From NCBI GenBank assembly GCA_030673845.1, contig JAUTCQ010000017.1, positions 372,001-436,000 on the forward strand: 64,000 nt of DNA. The letters are read 5' to 3'. This stretch comes from Verrucomicrobiota bacterium JB022 (GTDB taxonomy: Bacteria; Verrucomicrobiota; Verrucomicrobiia; Opitutales; Oceanipulchritudinaceae). A program made the translations under genes and the position numbers. The notes beneath the pieces were generated by a model, which saw only the letters and a program-made list of their open reading frames with translations, made no database searches and had not been told where the DNA came from. The stretch's first letter is position 1; every line of letters starts with the position of its first letter. This document shows, one piece after another, positions 4,640-9,588 of this stretch.

Positions 4640-5311
4640 ATGCAAAGGGTCGTTGAGCCTGAGATATTAGATGGTCTGGCCTGGGACGATCCGGCTGCTT
4701 TAGGCAACCGCCGCGATCTACGCACTATCAACGCACTGATGGGCAACTTCTCGTGGTTTGGGCAAGAGCTGCGGATGCACCTGCGGCCCGATGAGCACAT
4801 TATCGAGCTGGCGGCGGGAGACGGCGCGCTCGGGCGCTATCTGGAGCGGCACATCATCGCGCCCTTCGGCTACCGTGGCGGCTATGCGGGGCTGGACCGC
4901 ATCCCGCGCCCCCAGCGTTGGCCCGAAGACTGGGAGTGGCTGGAGACGGATTTGGCGAACTGGTGCGAAAGTGGCGGTTGCCCGGTGGTAATCGGCAACT
5001 TCATCCTGCATCAGCTCACCGATGAAGAGCTGCGATCGCTGGGTGAAAAACTGCGCTGCGCCCGCGTCCTGCTCTTCAACGAGACGGCGCGCTGCCGCTC
5101 CGCACTTTGTCTGGCCTACCTTGGTTATGTCCTTGGCTTCAACCGGGTTTCCCGCCACGATGCGCCCGTGAGCGTGCGAGCGGGATTTCAAGGCAGGGAA
5201 TTGGCCGACCTTTTGGGGTTGGACGACGAGACGTGGAGCATCCATGCGTGGACGACGCCCATGGGCAGCTATCGGCTGAAGGCGATCCGGAAGGAGGAGC
5301 CGAGCGCTTGA
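4640..5311 (+). CDS. Class I SAM-dependent methyltransferase (type III PKS operon)
   Basis: The 223-residue protein has a Rossmann SAM-binding motif IIELAAGDGALGRYLE at residues 54-69, an acidic segment near residue 103 and a hydrophobic block VVIGNFILHQL typical of motif IV/post-I strands. It is the first gene of a three-gene set. Its TGA overlaps the ATG of the flavoprotein by one base, and a strong AAGGAGGAG ribosome site for that gene lies inside its 3' end, so the two are translationally coupled. In other bacterial type III PKS clusters, methyltransferases O- or C-methylate resorcinol or pyrone products. A polyketide substrate is therefore inferred from context only. Confidence 0.8.
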   Translation: MQRVVEPEILDGLAWDDPAALGNRRDLRTINALMGNFSWFGQELRMHLRPDEHIIELAAGDGALGRYLERHIIAPFGYRGGYAGLDRIPRPQRWPEDWEWLETDLANWCESGGCPVVIGNFILHQLTDEELRSLGEKLRCARVLLFNETARCRSALCLAYLGYVLGFNRVSRHDAPVSVRAGFQGRELADLLGLDDETWSIHAWTTPMGSYRLKAIRKEEPSA

Positions 5312-6339
5312 TGCGGCCTCTCCACGTCATGGGAGGGGGGCTCGCGGGGCTGGCCCTAGGCATCGGCCTGCGTCGGCACGACATCCCAGTGCAGATTCGC
5401 GAGGCCGGCGATTACCCACGCCACCGCGTGTGCGGCGAGTTCCTGGCCGGGATCCGCCCGGAGACGCTGCAATACTTCGGCATCAGCGACTTGTTTCAGG
5501 ATGCCCTGCGCCTGGAGACCACCCGCTGGTACCGTGGCGACAACCTGATTTACGAGCGCCAGTTGCCCGAACCTGCGCTGGCGATTTCGCGCTACGAACT
5601 GGATGCGCGCCTCAGCCGCCGCTTTCACCAACTGGGTGGCGACTTGATGCAGCGTTCGCGCGTCAACTTGAGCGAAAACCAGGAAGGCGTCATCTGGGCT
5701 ACCGGGCGTCGGAGGGCAACCAACCAGGCCCGTAAGCGCTGGCTGGGCCTGAAGATCCACGCCGTAGAGCTGGAACTGACGAGCGATCTCGAGCTACATT
5801 TTGGGCGAGGCGGCTACATCGGGCTCTCTCGCCTACCCAAGCACCGGGTCAACATCTGTGGGCTCTTCGAGCTGCAAAGCTCGTTGCAAGGGCGCGATGC
5901 CGATCTGATCCTCGCCTACCTGCAGCACGTCGGGCTCAAGAAGCTCAGCCACCGCCTGCGCTACGAGTCGCTCGACCCCGCTACCTTCCAGTCCGTCACC
6001 GCGATGGACTACAGTCGCCATCGCCCCCCGCCGGGCTACTTTTGCGTGGGCGACTGCTGGAGCCTGATGCCGCCCTTTACTGGCAACGGTATGACGCGCG
6101 CCCTTGAGCACGCCGCCGTCGCTACACCACTCTTGACCTACTATGCCACCCAGCAAATGAGCTGGAAGGAAGCGCTGAAAGGGCTGACCTCCGACAGCCA
6201 AAAGACCTTTGGCGGACGGCTGCGACGGGCCCAGATCCTGCATCATCTGTTGCTTAGCTCGCTGGGGCAGGGAGGCGTCGCCTTTCTGGCACGCCGCAAC
6301 TGGCTGCCTTTCGACCAGCTTTACCACGCTCTCCATTAG
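5311..6339 (+). CDS. FAD-dependent oxidoreductase (geranylgeranyl-reductase/PHBH-like, type III PKS operon)
   Basis: The 342-residue protein begins with a dinucleotide-binding beta-alpha-beta fold (VMGGGLAGLALGIGL, residues 6-20) and an early RVCGEFLAG segment. A late GDCWSLMPPFTGNGM block (248-261) corresponds to the GD motif that contacts FAD ribityl phosphate in flavoprotein monooxygenases. It is translationally coupled to the methyltransferase (TGATG overlap) and sits 6 bp before the polyketide synthase. In phenolic-lipid clusters such as srs of Streptomyces, a flavoprotein hydroxylates the resorcinol toward a quinone. That job is inferred here. A reductase acting on a prenyl or alkyl chain is an alternative. 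Confidence 0.82.
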   Translation: MRPLHVMGGGLAGLALGIGLRRHDIPVQIREAGDYPRHRVCGEFLAGIRPETLQYFGISDLFQDALRLETTRWYRGDNLIYERQLPEPALAISRYELDARLSRRFHQLGGDLMQRSRVNLSENQEGVIWATGRRRATNQARKRWLGLKIHAVELELTSDLELHFGRGGYIGLSRLPKHRVNICGLFELQSSLQGRDADLILAYLQHVGLKKLSHRLRYESLDPATFQSVTAMDYSRHRPPPGYFCVGDCWSLMPPFTGNGMTRALEHAAVATPLLTYYATQQMSWKEALKGLTSDSQKTFGGRLRRAQILHHLLLSSLGQGGVAFLARRNWLPFDQLYHALH

Positions 6340-6345
6340 GACATC

Positions 6346-7395
6346 ATGTATCTTACCGGCATTGCCACGGCCCTGCCTTCACGTTGCTACCGTCAAGAGG
6401 ACCTCTGGCATGTCTACGAACACTCTGCGTTGCGTGATCGATTACGCCCCCGTTCAACCGAGCTGCTGGGCAAGATCCTGCTTGGCGACAATGGGATCGA
6501 GACGCGTTACCTTGCGGCCGAGCGAGTAGGCGAGATCTTCGACCTCGACGCCCAGGCGCTCAACCGCACCTTCGAGGCTGCCGCCCCACCGCTGGCCGAG
6601 CAGGCGCTGCGCCCGGCATTGGAGAACGCGGGGGTGCCTCCCGGAGAGCTGGACGCCCTTTACGTCTGTACCTGCACAGGCTACCTCTGCCCGGGGCTCA
6701 CGAGCTACCTCAGCGAACGCCTTGGTCTGCGGGCCGACGCCTATCTGCAGGACTTGGTGGGCCTGGGGTGTGGTGCTGCCATCCCGACTTTGCGCTCGGC
6801 TGCCCATCACGTGGCCGCCCACCCAGAGGCCAAGGTGGCAGTCGTAGCGGTCGAGATCTGCAGTGCGGCCTTTTACCTCGACGACGATCCGGGGGTGATC
6901 ATCAGTGCCTGCCTCTTTGGCGACGGTGCCGCCGCCACCATCTGGACCGGCACCCCGCCCGCTGCTGGCCCGTCCTGGCGCTGCGGTGCCTTCGATACCG
7001 TGGTGATTCCCGAAAAACGCGACATCCTGCGCTTCGAGAATCGCGAGGGCAAGCTGCGCAACCTGCTTCACCGCTCCGTGCCTCGCGAAGCAGGCAACGC
7101 CGTGCGCCAGTTGTTCGAAAGGGATCAGGCCCGTGGCCATGCGCGTCCGGATGCCCTGATCCTCCACGCAGGCGGTCGGGATGTGCTGGACGCGATCGAG
7201 CAGACAGTCCCCGGCTACACCAGCCCGTGGTCGCGCGAAGTCTTGCGCCAGTGCGGCAATATGAGCAGCCCCAGCGTGCTCTTTGCCTTGGAACGTTTTC
7301 TAACCGACAAAAAAGCCAAAGACGCACAACGTCTTTGGCTCAGCAGTTTCGGCGCCGGCTTCTCCGCCCACAGCTGCGCGCTGGAGCGGGAGTAG
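6346..7395 (+). CDS. Type III polyketide synthase (chalcone synthase-like)
   Basis: The 349-residue protein shows the full Cys-His-Asn triad: Cys142 in GLGCGAAIP, His274 in LILHAGGRDVLDAIE and Asn305 in CGNMSSPSVLFAL. Length and fold fit bacterial type III PKSs, which condense an acyl starter with malonyl-CoA to alkylresorcinols, pyrones or related phenolics. It closes the methyltransferase-flavoprotein-PKS operon, so a methylated, hydroxylated or quinone phenolic lipid is the likely product (inference). No acyl carrier or transporter is adjacent. Its 3' coding end contains a perfect 11-bp inverted repeat (7314-7340) that looks like the terminator of the convergent gene. Confidence 0.92.
   Translation: MYLTGIATALPSRCYRQEDLWHVYEHSALRDRLRPRSTELLGKILLGDNGIETRYLAAERVGEIFDLDAQALNRTFEAAAPPLAEQALRPALENAGVPPGELDALYVCTCTGYLCPGLTSYLSERLGLRADAYLQDLVGLGCGAAIPTLRSAAHHVAAHPEAKVAVVAVEICSAAFYLDDDPGVIISACLFGDGAAATIWTGTPPAAGPSWRCGAFDTVVIPEKRDILRFENREGKLRNLLHRSVPREAGNAVRQLFERDQARGHARPDALILHAGGRDVLDAIEQTVPGYTSPWSREVLRQCGNMSSPSVLFALERFLTDKKAKDAQRLWLSSFGAGFSAHSCALERE
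7309..7340 (-). terminator. Minus-strand terminator embedded in the PKS coding sequence
   Basis: On the minus strand an 11-bp perfect stem (AGCCAAAGACG / CGTCTTTGGCT) with a 5-nt loop is followed by six T. It lies 71 bp beyond the stop of the convergent gene at 7411-8097 and inside the last 30 codons of the type III PKS. Confidence 0.8.
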
Positions 7396-8097: not shown

Positions 8098-8201
8098 TAG
8101 GTAAAGGGATTTTTAACAGAGTTATATTACGTGAGTGCAGTTTGATAATGAACTTCGTTGTCTTGCTTTACAAGCAGGATTTTCCTTAAGTTAAGGGCGT
8201 G

Positions 8202-8285
8202 ATGATTAGATCTAAGGATGCTTATTCCTTATTAGCCTGTATTGCAGCAATATCCGTCTTTGGTGGAGCCTACTATTGCGGGTAG
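8202..8285 (+). CDS. Possible 27-residue hydrophobic peptide
   Basis: A short frame in the gap between 8098 and 8346 encodes MIRSKDAYSLLACIAAISVF plus GGAYYCG. It has a charged start, one hydrophobic segment long enough to enter a membrane, and an AGGG 4 bp before the ATG. No homologue is known to me and the frame could be chance. The rest of the gap holds only AT-rich sequence, presumably the promoter of the minus-strand secreted protein. Confidence 0.25.
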   Translation: MIRSKDAYSLLACIAAISVFGGAYYCG

Positions 8286-8346
8286 GCGTTGGCCGTTCCA
8301 CTGGAGGGCAAGGGTGTTGTCATTGCAAAAAAACCTCAGGACACGA

Positions 8347-8401
8347 GATCGAACCAGCGACCAAGTGGTTAATCCCGCCTTGGCGGGACTCTACCGCTGA
8401 G
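8347..8401 (-). pseudogene. Truncated third tRNA-Asn-like fragment
   Basis: This marks the outer end of the tandem array. It matches the D-loop block, the 16-nt hairpin and the tRNA from anticodon loop to T loop, then diverges abruptly at base 8346, so the acceptor strand and CCA are lost. Confidence 0.75.
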
Positions 8402-8659
8402 GAGTTCGCGTCGGATGCGTGCGGCTGACTTCCATGCCTTGATCTCGCGTTCTCGGCGTACGGCGCTGGAGCGGTCTGGATGCGCTTCTTGCCAGACGAG
8501 TTCCCACGGTCCGTTTTTACGGGTGTATTTGCCTGCGCTACAATCGGTGGAGTTATGACTCTCTAGGCGTGCAACAAGATCGGTGCTCTGGCCGATATAG
8601 AAGCGTCCGGCTGGGTTTTGCAGGATGTAAACGTAACAATCCATCGCTTCCAAAACCAT
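8369..8659 (-). CDS. GIY-YIG family endonuclease, distal tandem copy
   Basis: The 96-residue protein has CYVYILQNPAGRFYIGQS (the GIY and YIG strands), an Arg-x3-His segment (ARLESHN) and a late REREIKAWK with the metal-binding Glu, as in small stand-alone GIY-YIG proteins (COG2827/UPF0213 type). The ATG at 8659 uses the terminal A of a pseudo-tRNA CCA; a second ATG at 8644 is equally possible. The last ten residues (LLSGRVPPRR plus Asp) and the stop are encoded by the tRNA-like hairpin region. It differs from the proximal copy at five residues (including Glu for Lys and Asp for Ser near the start). Longer frames that read upstream through the tRNA sequence are artefacts. Confidence 0.75.
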   Translation of the reverse strand: MVLEAMDCYVYILQNPAGRFYIGQSTDLVARLESHNSTDCSAGKYTRKNGPWELVWQEAHPDRSSAVRREREIKAWKSAARIRRELLSGRVPPRRD

Positions 8660-8730
8660 GGCTGCTCGGGCTGGGATCGAACCAGCGACCAAGTGGTTAA
8701 TCCCGCCTTGGCGGGACTCTACCGCTGAGC
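8659..8730 (-). pseudogene. tRNA-Asn-like fragment between the two GIY-YIG genes
   Basis: Read on the minus strand, this has the D-loop block GCTCAGCGGTAGAG, a foreign 16-nt hairpin, and then 42 nt identical to tRNA-Asn from the anticodon loop through CCA. The acceptor 5' strand and the 5' half of the anticodon stem are missing and the anticodon position would read ATT, so it cannot fold as a working tRNA. Confidence 0.8.
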
Positions 8731-8987
8731 AATGCGCGTCGTATGCGTGCGGCAGACTTCCATGCCTTGATCTCGCGTTCTCGGCGCATGGCGCTGGAGC
8801 GGTCTGGATGCGCTTCTTGCCAAACGAGTTCCCACGGTCCGTTTTTGCGGGTGTATTTGCCTGCGCTACGATCGGTGGAGTTATGACTCTCTAGGCGTGC
8901 AACAAGATCGGTGCTCTGCCCGATATAGAAGCGTCCGGCTGGGTTTTGCAGGATGTAAACGTAGCAAGACATCGCTTTCAAAACCAT
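8697..8987 (-). CDS. GIY-YIG family endonuclease, tRNA-proximal tandem copy
   Basis: The 96-residue protein is near-identical to its tandem neighbour and carries the same GIY-YIG landmarks (YVYIL, FYIG, ARLESHN, REREIKAWK). Its ATG at 8987 shares its A with the last base of the genome-encoded CCA of tRNA-Asn; an internal ATG at 8972 gives the more typical family N-terminus (MSCYVYIL). There is no separate promoter, so transcription would have to continue from the tRNA and processing at the CCA end would free the mRNA. The TAA stop lies in the anticodon-loop position of the following pseudo-tRNA. GIY-YIG proteins of this size are nucleases in mobile introns, repair and restriction; a role in mobility is inferred from the layout. 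Confidence 0.8.
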   Translation of the reverse strand: MVLKAMSCYVYILQNPAGRFYIGQSTDLVARLESHNSTDRSAGKYTRKNGPWELVWQEAHPDRSSAMRREREIKAWKSAARIRRALLSGRVPPRRD

Positions 8988-9061
8988 GGCTGCTCGGGCT
9001 GGGATCGAACCAGCGACCAAGTGGTTAACAGCCACCTGCTCTACCGCTGAGCTACCGAGCA
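8987..9061 (-). tRNA. tRNA-Asn (anticodon GTT)
   Basis: The 75-nt sequence folds completely: acceptor TGCTCGG/CCGAGCA, D stem GCTC/GAGC, anticodon stem GGTGG/CCACT with loop CTGTTAA, five-nt variable region, T stem GCTGG/CCAGC with TTCGATC loop, discriminator G and encoded CCA. The anticodon GTT specifies Asn. It is the only intact tRNA seen in this window and its 3' half is duplicated twice downstream. Confidence 0.97.
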
Positions 9062-9177
9062 ACTGCGGATTTTCCTGTCGAGGAAAAGCCCTGAATGAAG
9101 TCAGGGAGATGGAGGTGTGTCAAAGATAAATTTACGCGGGTGGGTACTTTTTTTGCGTTTCCGCCCGCGAGGCAGTG

Positions 9178-9588
9178 TCAATAGGCGAGGAAGCGGTTGC
9201 GGACTTCAGGGGCGGGCACGTAGGTGTGGTCGATGGTGCCGACGGCGCGGGAGAGGGTGGGGCGGTTTTGGGAGACGCCTTCGTAGGGGATGTCGCGCAG
9301 GGCTTTGGGCACGAAGCGCAGGCGGCGGAGGGTGCGCCAGGGCTGTTTGCAGTAGCTGAGGGCGCGCAGCACGGCGTCGGACTTGAAATGAGCGTGTTGC
9401 GGTTCGATCAGCACGACGGATTTGATGTAATCTTCGTCGATATCGTGCTCGCGCAGCAGTTGTCTGCCGGGCTCGCTCTGGAGTGGAGCGTAGTGGAGGT
9501 GCCCGGCCGGGTCGTGTTGCACGAGCCAGTGGACGGCGGCGCGGCAGAAGTTGCAATCGCCATCGAAGAGTAAAACGGGGTGGGACAT
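9178..9588 (-). CDS. DCC family thiol-disulfide oxidoreductase-like protein
   Basis: The 136-residue protein begins MSHPVLLFDGDCNFCRAAV, giving the family signature D-G-x-C-x2-C at residues 9-15, followed by helices with LHYAPLQSE and VVLIEPQHAHFKSDAVLRAL as in DUF393/DCC proteins. These small cytoplasmic proteins have a thioredoxin-like fold and a presumed redox role; the partner is unknown. The ATG at 9588 places the motif at the canonical position, so longer upstream frames are rejected. It is divergent from menC with about 90 bp between starts, leaving room for a shared promoter region. Confidence 0.85.
   Translation of the reverse strand: MSHPVLLFDGDCNFCRAAVHWLVQHDPAGHLHYAPLQSEPGRQLLREHDIDEDYIKSVVLIEPQHAHFKSDAVLRALSYCKQPWRTLRRLRFVPKALRDIPYEGVSQNRPTLSRAVGTIDHTYVPAPEVRNRFLAY

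Follow-up and report, generated by a model that had tools for sequence, protein, structure and literature searches.

GIY-YIG nuclease genes bracketed by copies of the tRNA-Asn 3' half in a Verrucomicrobiota chromosome: a probable minimal homing-type element

Transfer RNA genes have long been known as landing sites of integrase-borne islands. In tyrosine-integrase elements with a tRNA 3' end as att site, the intact tRNA is restored, its 3' half is repeated at the far end, and tandem arrays are formed. A GIY-YIG nuclease, SegB of phage T6, is reported to cut inside tRNA genes, with RAWTSGAAC as its motif at 23 of 83 sites; SegB and its nuclease residues are reported to be needed for the tandem amplification of tRNA-Tyr together with segB (PMC13096335). 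YhbQ and YazA are placed in the family founded by Slx1, and the accessible part of that source does not describe them as mobile or tRNA-linked (PMC7017083).

Here we describe a locus of Verrucomicrobiota bacterium JB022 (contig JAUTCQ010000017.1, C17 below), analysed within a stretch of 64,000 nucleotides that we call the window. It shares with the tRNA-att elements an intact tRNA, a far-end repeat of the tRNA 3' half and tandem arrays, but its unit measures only 328 bp, has no integrase (no PF00589 match on contig C17), and ends in a copy that bears a hairpin and follows the host tRNA. With SegB it has the GIY-YIG nuclease in common, and in T4 segB follows tRNA-Ile at a distance of 41 bp and in the same orientation; however, SegB is phage-borne and has 221 aa with an extra C-terminal part, while the window element is chromosomal and its protein has 96. 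In hhalign the window protein and SegB aligned over 23 columns with a probability of 10.7, which gives no homology outside the core GIY-YIG motif, and no tRNA-Ile 3' piece of 8 nt or more turned up between 100 nt ahead of the T4 segB end and 300 nt past it. The UPF0213/Slx1-like proteins (1zg2, 1ywl; YhbQ, YazA) consist of the same single domain. By analogy, SegB appears to be the best precedent for the homing-type mechanism discussed below, and the reverse complement of its motif seems to resemble the tRNA T arm. In the open-access literature, covered through titles and the beginnings of abstracts (subscription papers and bioRxiv lay mostly outside this scope), we found no account of GIY-YIG genes on chromosomes with tRNA 3' ends on either side, although an earlier description may exist.

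The tRNA-Asn locus and its nuclease

ARAGORN recognised a single tRNA in the window, tRNA-Asn(gtt) on the minus strand, which is followed by two 328-bp units that are 95% identical (a 300-nt direct repeat with a spacing of 328; Table 1). Repeat search, ARAGORN and Pfam agree on this arrangement, which the earlier note had read as two GIY-YIG units with copies of the tRNA 3' half. Beyond that note go the minus-strand layout, the chimeric distal copies and the two ends of the reading frame: the ATG of the GIY-YIG gene starts on the final A of the CCA that the tRNA gene encodes, and the copied anticodon loop supplies the stop codon, TAA. Each unit consists, in this order, of the GIY-YIG ORF, a 14-nt D-arm remnant, the TCCCGCCAAGGCGGGA hairpin and tRNA sequence from position 34; judged by eye, the distal tRNA copies are chimeras of the D-arm remnant and the hairpin, the latter standing for tRNA positions 24-33. 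A direct repeat of the tRNA 3' end was found at both ends (copies of 42 and 26 nt), and the repeat search placed the 26-nt piece in three in-register copies, at 8347, 8675 and 9003. The longest exact matches between the flanks of the ORFs measured 50 and 55 nt, against at most 13 nt in shuffles (30 base shuffles each), and the repeat arrangement is therefore not due to chance. The GIY-YIG gene is the only ORF that spans the unit in the direction of the tRNA. No promoter of its own was detected for it in a scan of positions 8100-9300, where the single promoter-like site lies on the plus strand (0.7 sites expected). The plus-strand neighbours at 4640-7395, assigned by eye, are presumably methyltransferase-like, FAD-dependent oxidoreductase-like and chalcone-synthase-like type III PKS-like genes.

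Table 1. Features of the tRNA-Asn locus (positions within the window)
Feature	Positions	Strand	Basis
tRNA-Asn(gtt), CCA encoded	8987..9061	-	ARAGORN; only full-length tRNA-Asn match of its own genome
Proximal tRNA 3' half (tRNA positions 34-75), left direct repeat	8987..9028	-	Repeat and sequence comparison
GIY-YIG gene copy 1, 96 codons and TAA	8697..8987	-	ORF, Pfam
D-arm remnant GCTCAGCGGTAGAG, identical to own tRNA, inside the ORF reading	8717..8730	-	14-nt repeat
Hairpin TCCCGCCAAGGCGGGA in place of tRNA positions 24-33	8701..8716	-	By eye
Middle copy of tRNA 3' half, 42/42 nt, tRNA positions 34-75	8659..8700	-	Repeat, sequence match
GIY-YIG gene copy 2, protein 95% identical to copy 1	8369..8659	-	ORF, Pfam
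D-arm remnant of second unit, 13/14 nt	8389..8402	-	Repeat
Hairpin of second unit	8373..8388	-	Hairpin search
Distal truncated tRNA copy, 26 nt, positions 34-59, diverging thereafter	8347..8372	-	Repeat

Both ORFs belong to the GIY-YIG superfamily by domain (Pfam PF01541, E = 9.7e-17 and 1.8e-15; 61.5 and 57.4 bits, cut-off 22.6) and by conserved residues. Y10, Y20, G22, R30, H34, T45, E69 and K73 were invariant in 23 aligned relatives, and the alignment indicates that the catalytic residues, which we take to be the Tyr, Tyr, Arg and Glu of the domain, are kept. The nearest solved structures by sequence of this single-domain protein are the UPF0213 proteins 1zg2 (E = 3.8e-17) and 1ywl (3.1e-12), followed by SLX1 (1.1e-6), UvrC and, weakly, the catalytic domain of I-TevI (0.029). 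The similarity is of UPF0213 type across the domain, as 1zg2 and 1ywl align over profile positions 2-71 of 75; single-domain nucleases of this type presumably correspond to COG2827. Searches of other libraries gave the homing endonuclease phrog_314 (PHROGs, E = 6.8e-5), grpIintron_endo as sole NCBIfam match, far under its cut-off, and two weak PDC-S14 matches in the defence library (E = 0.002 and 0.009).

The two window genes look to be under purifying selection, with dN/dS of 0.15 at a dS of 0.13. Selection was tested in 12 nuclease pairs, three of which had saturated synonymous sites. The window pair aside, dN/dS was 0.07-0.20 in 7 of 11 pairs: window against L003 (0.13, dS 1.86) and six others, among them L084-L120 from a clade without tRNAs; the pair at L045 gave 0.76, on 9 changes. 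The earlier note had proposed that the element inserted twice or was amplified by unequal crossover. The low dS of the window pair speaks for a recent event; however, the two tandem copies of the L008 array were saturated (pS 0.90, pN 0.11), and arrays are therefore not always recent duplications.

Occurrence behind tRNA genes and target choice

The nuclease search matched in 74 of the 273 genomes of the order, and a scan of genome_contigs yielded 29 loci. The examined set, order matches with E < 1e-6 plus these 29 loci, comprised 120 loci with 142 domains; with L002 dropped as a repeat of L001, the order sample held 102 domains in 90 loci and the genome_contigs sample 38 domains, each domain of an array being counted singly. 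The 3' end of a tRNA or tmRNA lay on the same strand, at most 500 bp upstream, in 46 of the 102 order-sample domains; the other orientations were rare (opposite strand upstream 4, same strand downstream 3, opposite strand downstream 4). In the genome_contigs sample the same-strand upstream position was found in 30 of 38 domains, against 2, 1 and 0. Distal tRNA copies with an exact match of 16 nt or more were present at 24 of 102 and 30 of 38 domains, respectively; 4 of these 54 copies (L059, L088, L095, L108), which matched an intact downstream tRNA or that of another locus, were excluded later. The targets with a distal copy were Asn, Met, Arg(tct), Arg(cct), Val(tac), Ser and Ile, the last with marked copies only. 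In answer to the check proposed in the earlier note, homologues recur 3' of tRNA genes with duplicated tRNA ends, at Asn, Met, Arg, Val and Ser; they do adjoin tRNA genes, and its refuting condition of homologues that never neighbour them fails. Their occurrence in chromosomes of at least two phyla, Verrucomicrobia and Bacteroidetes, appears to be new.

Three loci (L020, L027, L069) lie 3' of tmRNA, a classic integration site, with the GIY-YIG gene 87-149 bp away. No same-strand tRNA was found within 500 bp of 56 of the 102 order-sample domains, including a clade of 25 rows that has none and looks like a non-mobile relative, and neither a tRNA nor an Asn fragment was found at L007, a member of the Asn clade. 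In 40 loci, mainly ones that lack a tRNA behind the ORF, Rfam revealed 3 tmRNAs and 2 tRNAs. These 25 unlinked relatives, the UPF0213 proteins as best PDB sequence relatives and the recent origin of the window pair would suit an ordinary UPF0213-type nuclease gene duplicated by chance beside a tRNA through unequal crossover. We regard this explanation as highly improbable: the arrangement recurs at several tRNA identities, in Verrucomicrobia as well as Bacteroidetes and with chimeric distal copies, and a chimera pattern led to the nuclease in a previously unseen genome (see below). Recurrence strongly disfavours it.

Relatives were also present in 17 phage records and 1 viral contig, and plasmid matches came from 28 records. 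No tRNA was found in the fetched stretches of the four phage or viral relatives examined (L205, which begins at a contig end, and L214-L216), and no helper was found; the word "satellite", used in the earlier note, is therefore not retained here.

Several variant arrangements were seen at individual loci. Behind tRNA-Asp, Ser, Gln, Val and Ala (L064, L071, L089, L103, L109, L117), other hairpin-rich leader repeats extend from the CCA to the ORF, and an exact distal tRNA copy is absent except at L071. L088 (G139) is mirrored, with a copy of the tRNA-His 5' part and its upstream flank (42 nt exact), then the GIY-YIG ORF and then the intact tRNA-His. In Elizabethkingia and Chryseobacterium (L043, L047, L055, L059) whole tRNA-Pro/tRNA-Arg pairs are duplicated beside the GIY-YIG gene, resembling segmental amplification of the SegB type. 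In a Zixibacteria MAG (L036) the ORF lies between two hairpin-marked copies that are tRNA-Asp-like by eye and have no close match among the available tRNAs; no intact tRNA was present within 3 kb, and by this eye comparison Zixibacteria is perhaps a further phylum.

The nuclease tree (125 rows, 77 columns) was built by a quick method, and many of its forks are unresolved. The Asn clade has 16 of 17 rows at Asn (the labels of L034 and of the two rows of L013 were assigned by hand from degenerate copies), the Met clade has 6 of 7 rows at Met, and in a clade of five rows four stand at four Ser isoacceptors. Arg(tct) groups with Val(tac) in a Bacteroidetes clade; Ala, Val(gac), Gln and tmRNA rows are placed in a mixed manner, and L031, a Met row, and L114, an Asn row, are placed outside their clades. 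Target labels changed 28 times on the tree, against a mean of 69.7 after shuffling, and 0 of 200 shuffles were as low; near-copies and vertical descent contribute to this clustering, and the matching of clade and target could be partly due to vertical inheritance. At L032, divergent neighbouring tRNA-Met and tRNA-Asn genes each carry a gene of the matching clade. The tree indicates that several nuclease clades track their target tRNA: a correspondence of nuclease lineage and target site, as in homing elements, is seen for Asn, Met and Ser, with the other clades mixed. This bears out the homing-like logic suggested earlier, and since target choice can be read from the sequence, the tRNA-identity specificity of this tiny nuclease is directly testable.

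An intact tRNA, cargo and a repeat of the tRNA 3' end are the geometry of integrase islands, and the genome contains 10 Phage_integrase hits. The unit might accordingly be a cassette that a tyrosine integrase mobilises in trans, with the tRNA 3' half as att site and the nuclease as cargo; as the loci were collected via the nuclease, other cargo would be visible only through pattern searches. None of the 10 hits lies on the element's contig in the search of its own genome, in agreement with the earlier statement that an integrase is lacking. Moreover, for Asn, Met and Ser the target tRNA follows from the clade of the nuclease, and the distal copies are chimeric, carry a hairpin and match the host tRNA. 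We consider an integrase in trans unlikely, and less likely than a homing-type route.

Occupied and empty sites and a candidate mechanism

With one genome per species in the sample, occupancy was compared between species, where it is patchy. The sample's other genome of the same genus, G040, has a tRNA-Asn identical in 75 of 75 positions and no element, and its upstream neighbours are those of the window (82, 57 and 69% aa identity); an empty tRNA-Asn site, which the earlier note had recommended looking for, is thus present within the genus. The window's downstream genes are absent from the fetched 9.6 kb of G040, which leaves the right junction of the empty site undefined. In another genus G095 is filled and G105 and G118 are empty, so that occupied and empty alleles were observed in two comparisons, both between species (G000, the filled counterpart of G040, being the first). 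In G095 the tRNA and its distal copy share a T arm that differs from the one in G105 and G118; the arrival of a tRNA half with subsequent conversion would fit this, as would a lineage-specific change of both. Among the matches examined, Asn-clade genes occur in 2 of 17 genomes of the family. G041 and G071, of one genus, carry Asn elements from different supported subclades. By eye, G084 and G167 have decayed or partial GIY-YIG-like genes after tRNA-Asn.

These data also bear on a host-side, toxin-like device, in which the nuclease would act on the tRNA or its gene, the pseudo-tRNA would be a decoy or antidote RNA, and linkage would reflect co-expression instead of mobility. The window's middle tRNA copy folds more stably than shuffled sequences (z = -3.1; 1 of 200 as stable), D-arm remnant bases pairing with the acceptor strand in this fold; the hairpin arms show compensated changes, and pseudo-tRNA arrays exist both with and without a nuclease. 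Such a device is nonetheless unlikely in view of the congeneric empty site, the small share of family genomes with Asn-clade genes, the stops carried by some copies and the different subclades inside one genus.

We favour the reading of the locus as a homing-type element, minimal and free-standing, that belongs to the tRNA 3' half; it probably works in a SegB-like manner, although the profile comparison does not place it in the SegB family. The single-domain GIY-YIG nuclease would cut or nick, within the 3' half, a gene for one particular tRNA, Asn in this case. With an occupied copy as template, recombinational repair would then put the nuclease gene directly behind a complete tRNA, and the displaced tRNA 3' part would end up behind the nuclease gene. 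As the single-copy tRNA would be kept intact, the cost of insertion to the host might be low, and the tRNA promoter may drive transcription of the nuclease gene. Direct repeats of 30-42 nt would allow tandem growth and loss, and remnants would decay. We infer the cleavage site, transfer, repair route, self-protection and transcription from the tRNA promoter from the arrangement of the sequences. The unlinked domains, L007, the misplaced rows, the undefined right junction and the L045 pair count against the homing-type reading, and so do three further points. The complete tRNA beside the element would stay a target, and the reconstituted tRNA indeed looks cuttable; the T-arm data of G095 are at odds with a simple model in which the distal copy is the native one, unless conversion followed later; and hairpin-marked tRNA copies occur without a GIY-YIG gene. 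No vehicle for the element was found. If the homing-type reading is correct, tRNA genes house, besides integrase islands, self-spreading units of about 330 bp with one gene, and such units sit in chromosomes of Verrucomicrobia and Bacteroidetes.

Hairpin-marked tRNA copies

Of 50 distal copies, 47 have a perfect stem (5 bp or longer) in the 45 nt ahead of the exact tRNA match, compared to 28% of random segments of the same loci, and in 39 of the 47 the stem ended at most 5 nt from the start of the match. The arm was TCCCG in 28 of the 47 and unrelated in 5; in the other 14 it was shifted or altered on both sides (ATCCC, TTCCG/CGGAA, CCCCG/CGGGG, CTCCG/CGGAG, GCCCC/GGGGC, ATCCG). By eye, the hairpin replaces parts of the anticodon arm and sometimes the T loop or D loop. 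Such marking of displaced tRNA copies by a compensated TCCCG/CGGGA hairpin appears to be new; our guess is that it removes the cut site or is a structure read by the nuclease.

The distal copies were compared with the tRNA of their own host (n = 38; groups with fewer than 4 copies, namely Val, Arg(cct) and Ser, were omitted, and the Arg group comprised 4 distinct tRNA 3' parts). The own-host tRNA was the best fit in 32 copies, tied in 4 and was worse in 2, both at L016; with own-host fit in 32 of 38, the distal copy is derived from, or kept equal to, the host tRNA. The idea that the distal copy of L006 was foreign, raised by an acceptor-stem base fitting another host's tRNA, was rejected, as own-host match is the rule.

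Where a tRNA duplication of 13 nt or more was present, 33 of 49 zones held a TCCCG hairpin within 250 nt downstream of the domain, against 8 of 91 zones that lack a duplication, while 49 control arms, permuted or of the same size, averaged 0.76 per 140 zones (maximum 4); this enrichment is partly circular, since the arm was first noticed in the same loci, and a search with the Asn pattern served as independent check. Applied alone to 387 genomes of the phylum, the Asn-chimera pattern gave 7 matches in 5 genomes, against 0 for the control. The nuclease accompanies tRNA-Asn in three of these genomes, one of which (G460) was previously unseen, belongs to a different family and has a complete element; the matches in the others were an upstream marked copy only (G021) and an array at a contig end (G385). 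A first chimera pattern, whose gap limits miss the window's own type, had matched 39 times in 246 genomes, compared with 7 times for its reversed version. Of 30 loci obtained from these matches, four contain a GIY-YIG domain (L121, L126, L137, L139) and two are pseudo-tRNA-Met arrays without GIY-YIG (L129, L130); the remainder, with neither tRNA nor GIY-YIG, was taken as background.

The association with tRNA duplications bears on the proposal that an unrelated process, a tRNA-targeting palindromic repeat, makes both the duplications and the hairpins, with GIY-YIG genes riding on the hot spot. In all 7 further genomes searched, TCCCG hairpins outnumbered the reversed pattern (from 17 against 4 to 101 against 10), and pseudo-tRNAs occur at Val, Asn and Ala genes without a nuclease. 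However, a general dispersed host repeat was rejected for the element's own genome, where the hairpin was rarer than the reversed pattern (52 against 106 matches, with a slightly wider loop range), and the hairpins are concentrated in the zones with a tRNA duplication. Taken together, we judge the palindromic repeat improbable as the source of these loci.

Tentatively, the observations could instead point to a new class of minimal mobile elements, made up of a single-domain, Slx1-like nuclease and a structured end. Such an element would insert behind a tRNA gene through recognition of tRNA-shaped (hairpin or cruciform) DNA instead of a long sequence and would duplicate the 3' part of the host tRNA, and the conserved, compensated hairpin on each displaced copy would belong to its recognition or immunity. 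If such a shape-reading class exists, pseudo-tRNA arrays that lack the nuclease gene would be traces of its action in trans.

Marked copies upstream of tRNA-Asn, with no nuclease in between, were found in G084, G021, G130, G167 and G175. At L155-L158 and L160, 5' pseudo-copies lie upstream of an intact tRNA-Asn and show the same chimera as the window's distal copies, GAG followed by the hairpin and TTAACC. L129 (G175) and L130 (G139) consist of tandem near-complete pseudo-copies of tRNA-Met, with a unit of 125 bp in L129 and a position upstream of the intact tRNA-Met in L130; in their hairpins, TCCCGC-loop-GCGGGA, the arms are fixed and the 4-nt loops vary. The palindrome TCCCGATAGCTATCGGGA recurs several times in G275, the Bacteroidetes genome behind L038, and no tRNA was found within the stretches fetched around it (L196-L199). 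Among 20 hairpin places fetched from two Bacteroidetes genomes, L185, L186 and L188 are, by eye, clear pseudo-tRNA copies and L194 and L195 possible fragments near tRNAs; the other fetched hairpins resemble terminators or repeats of another kind. Pseudo-tRNAs with the hairpin mark form a conserved structure in their own right and confound tRNA annotation; ARAGORN annotated one of them, at L019, as "tRNA-Ile(gat)" and another, at L186, as "tRNA-Tyr(gta)".
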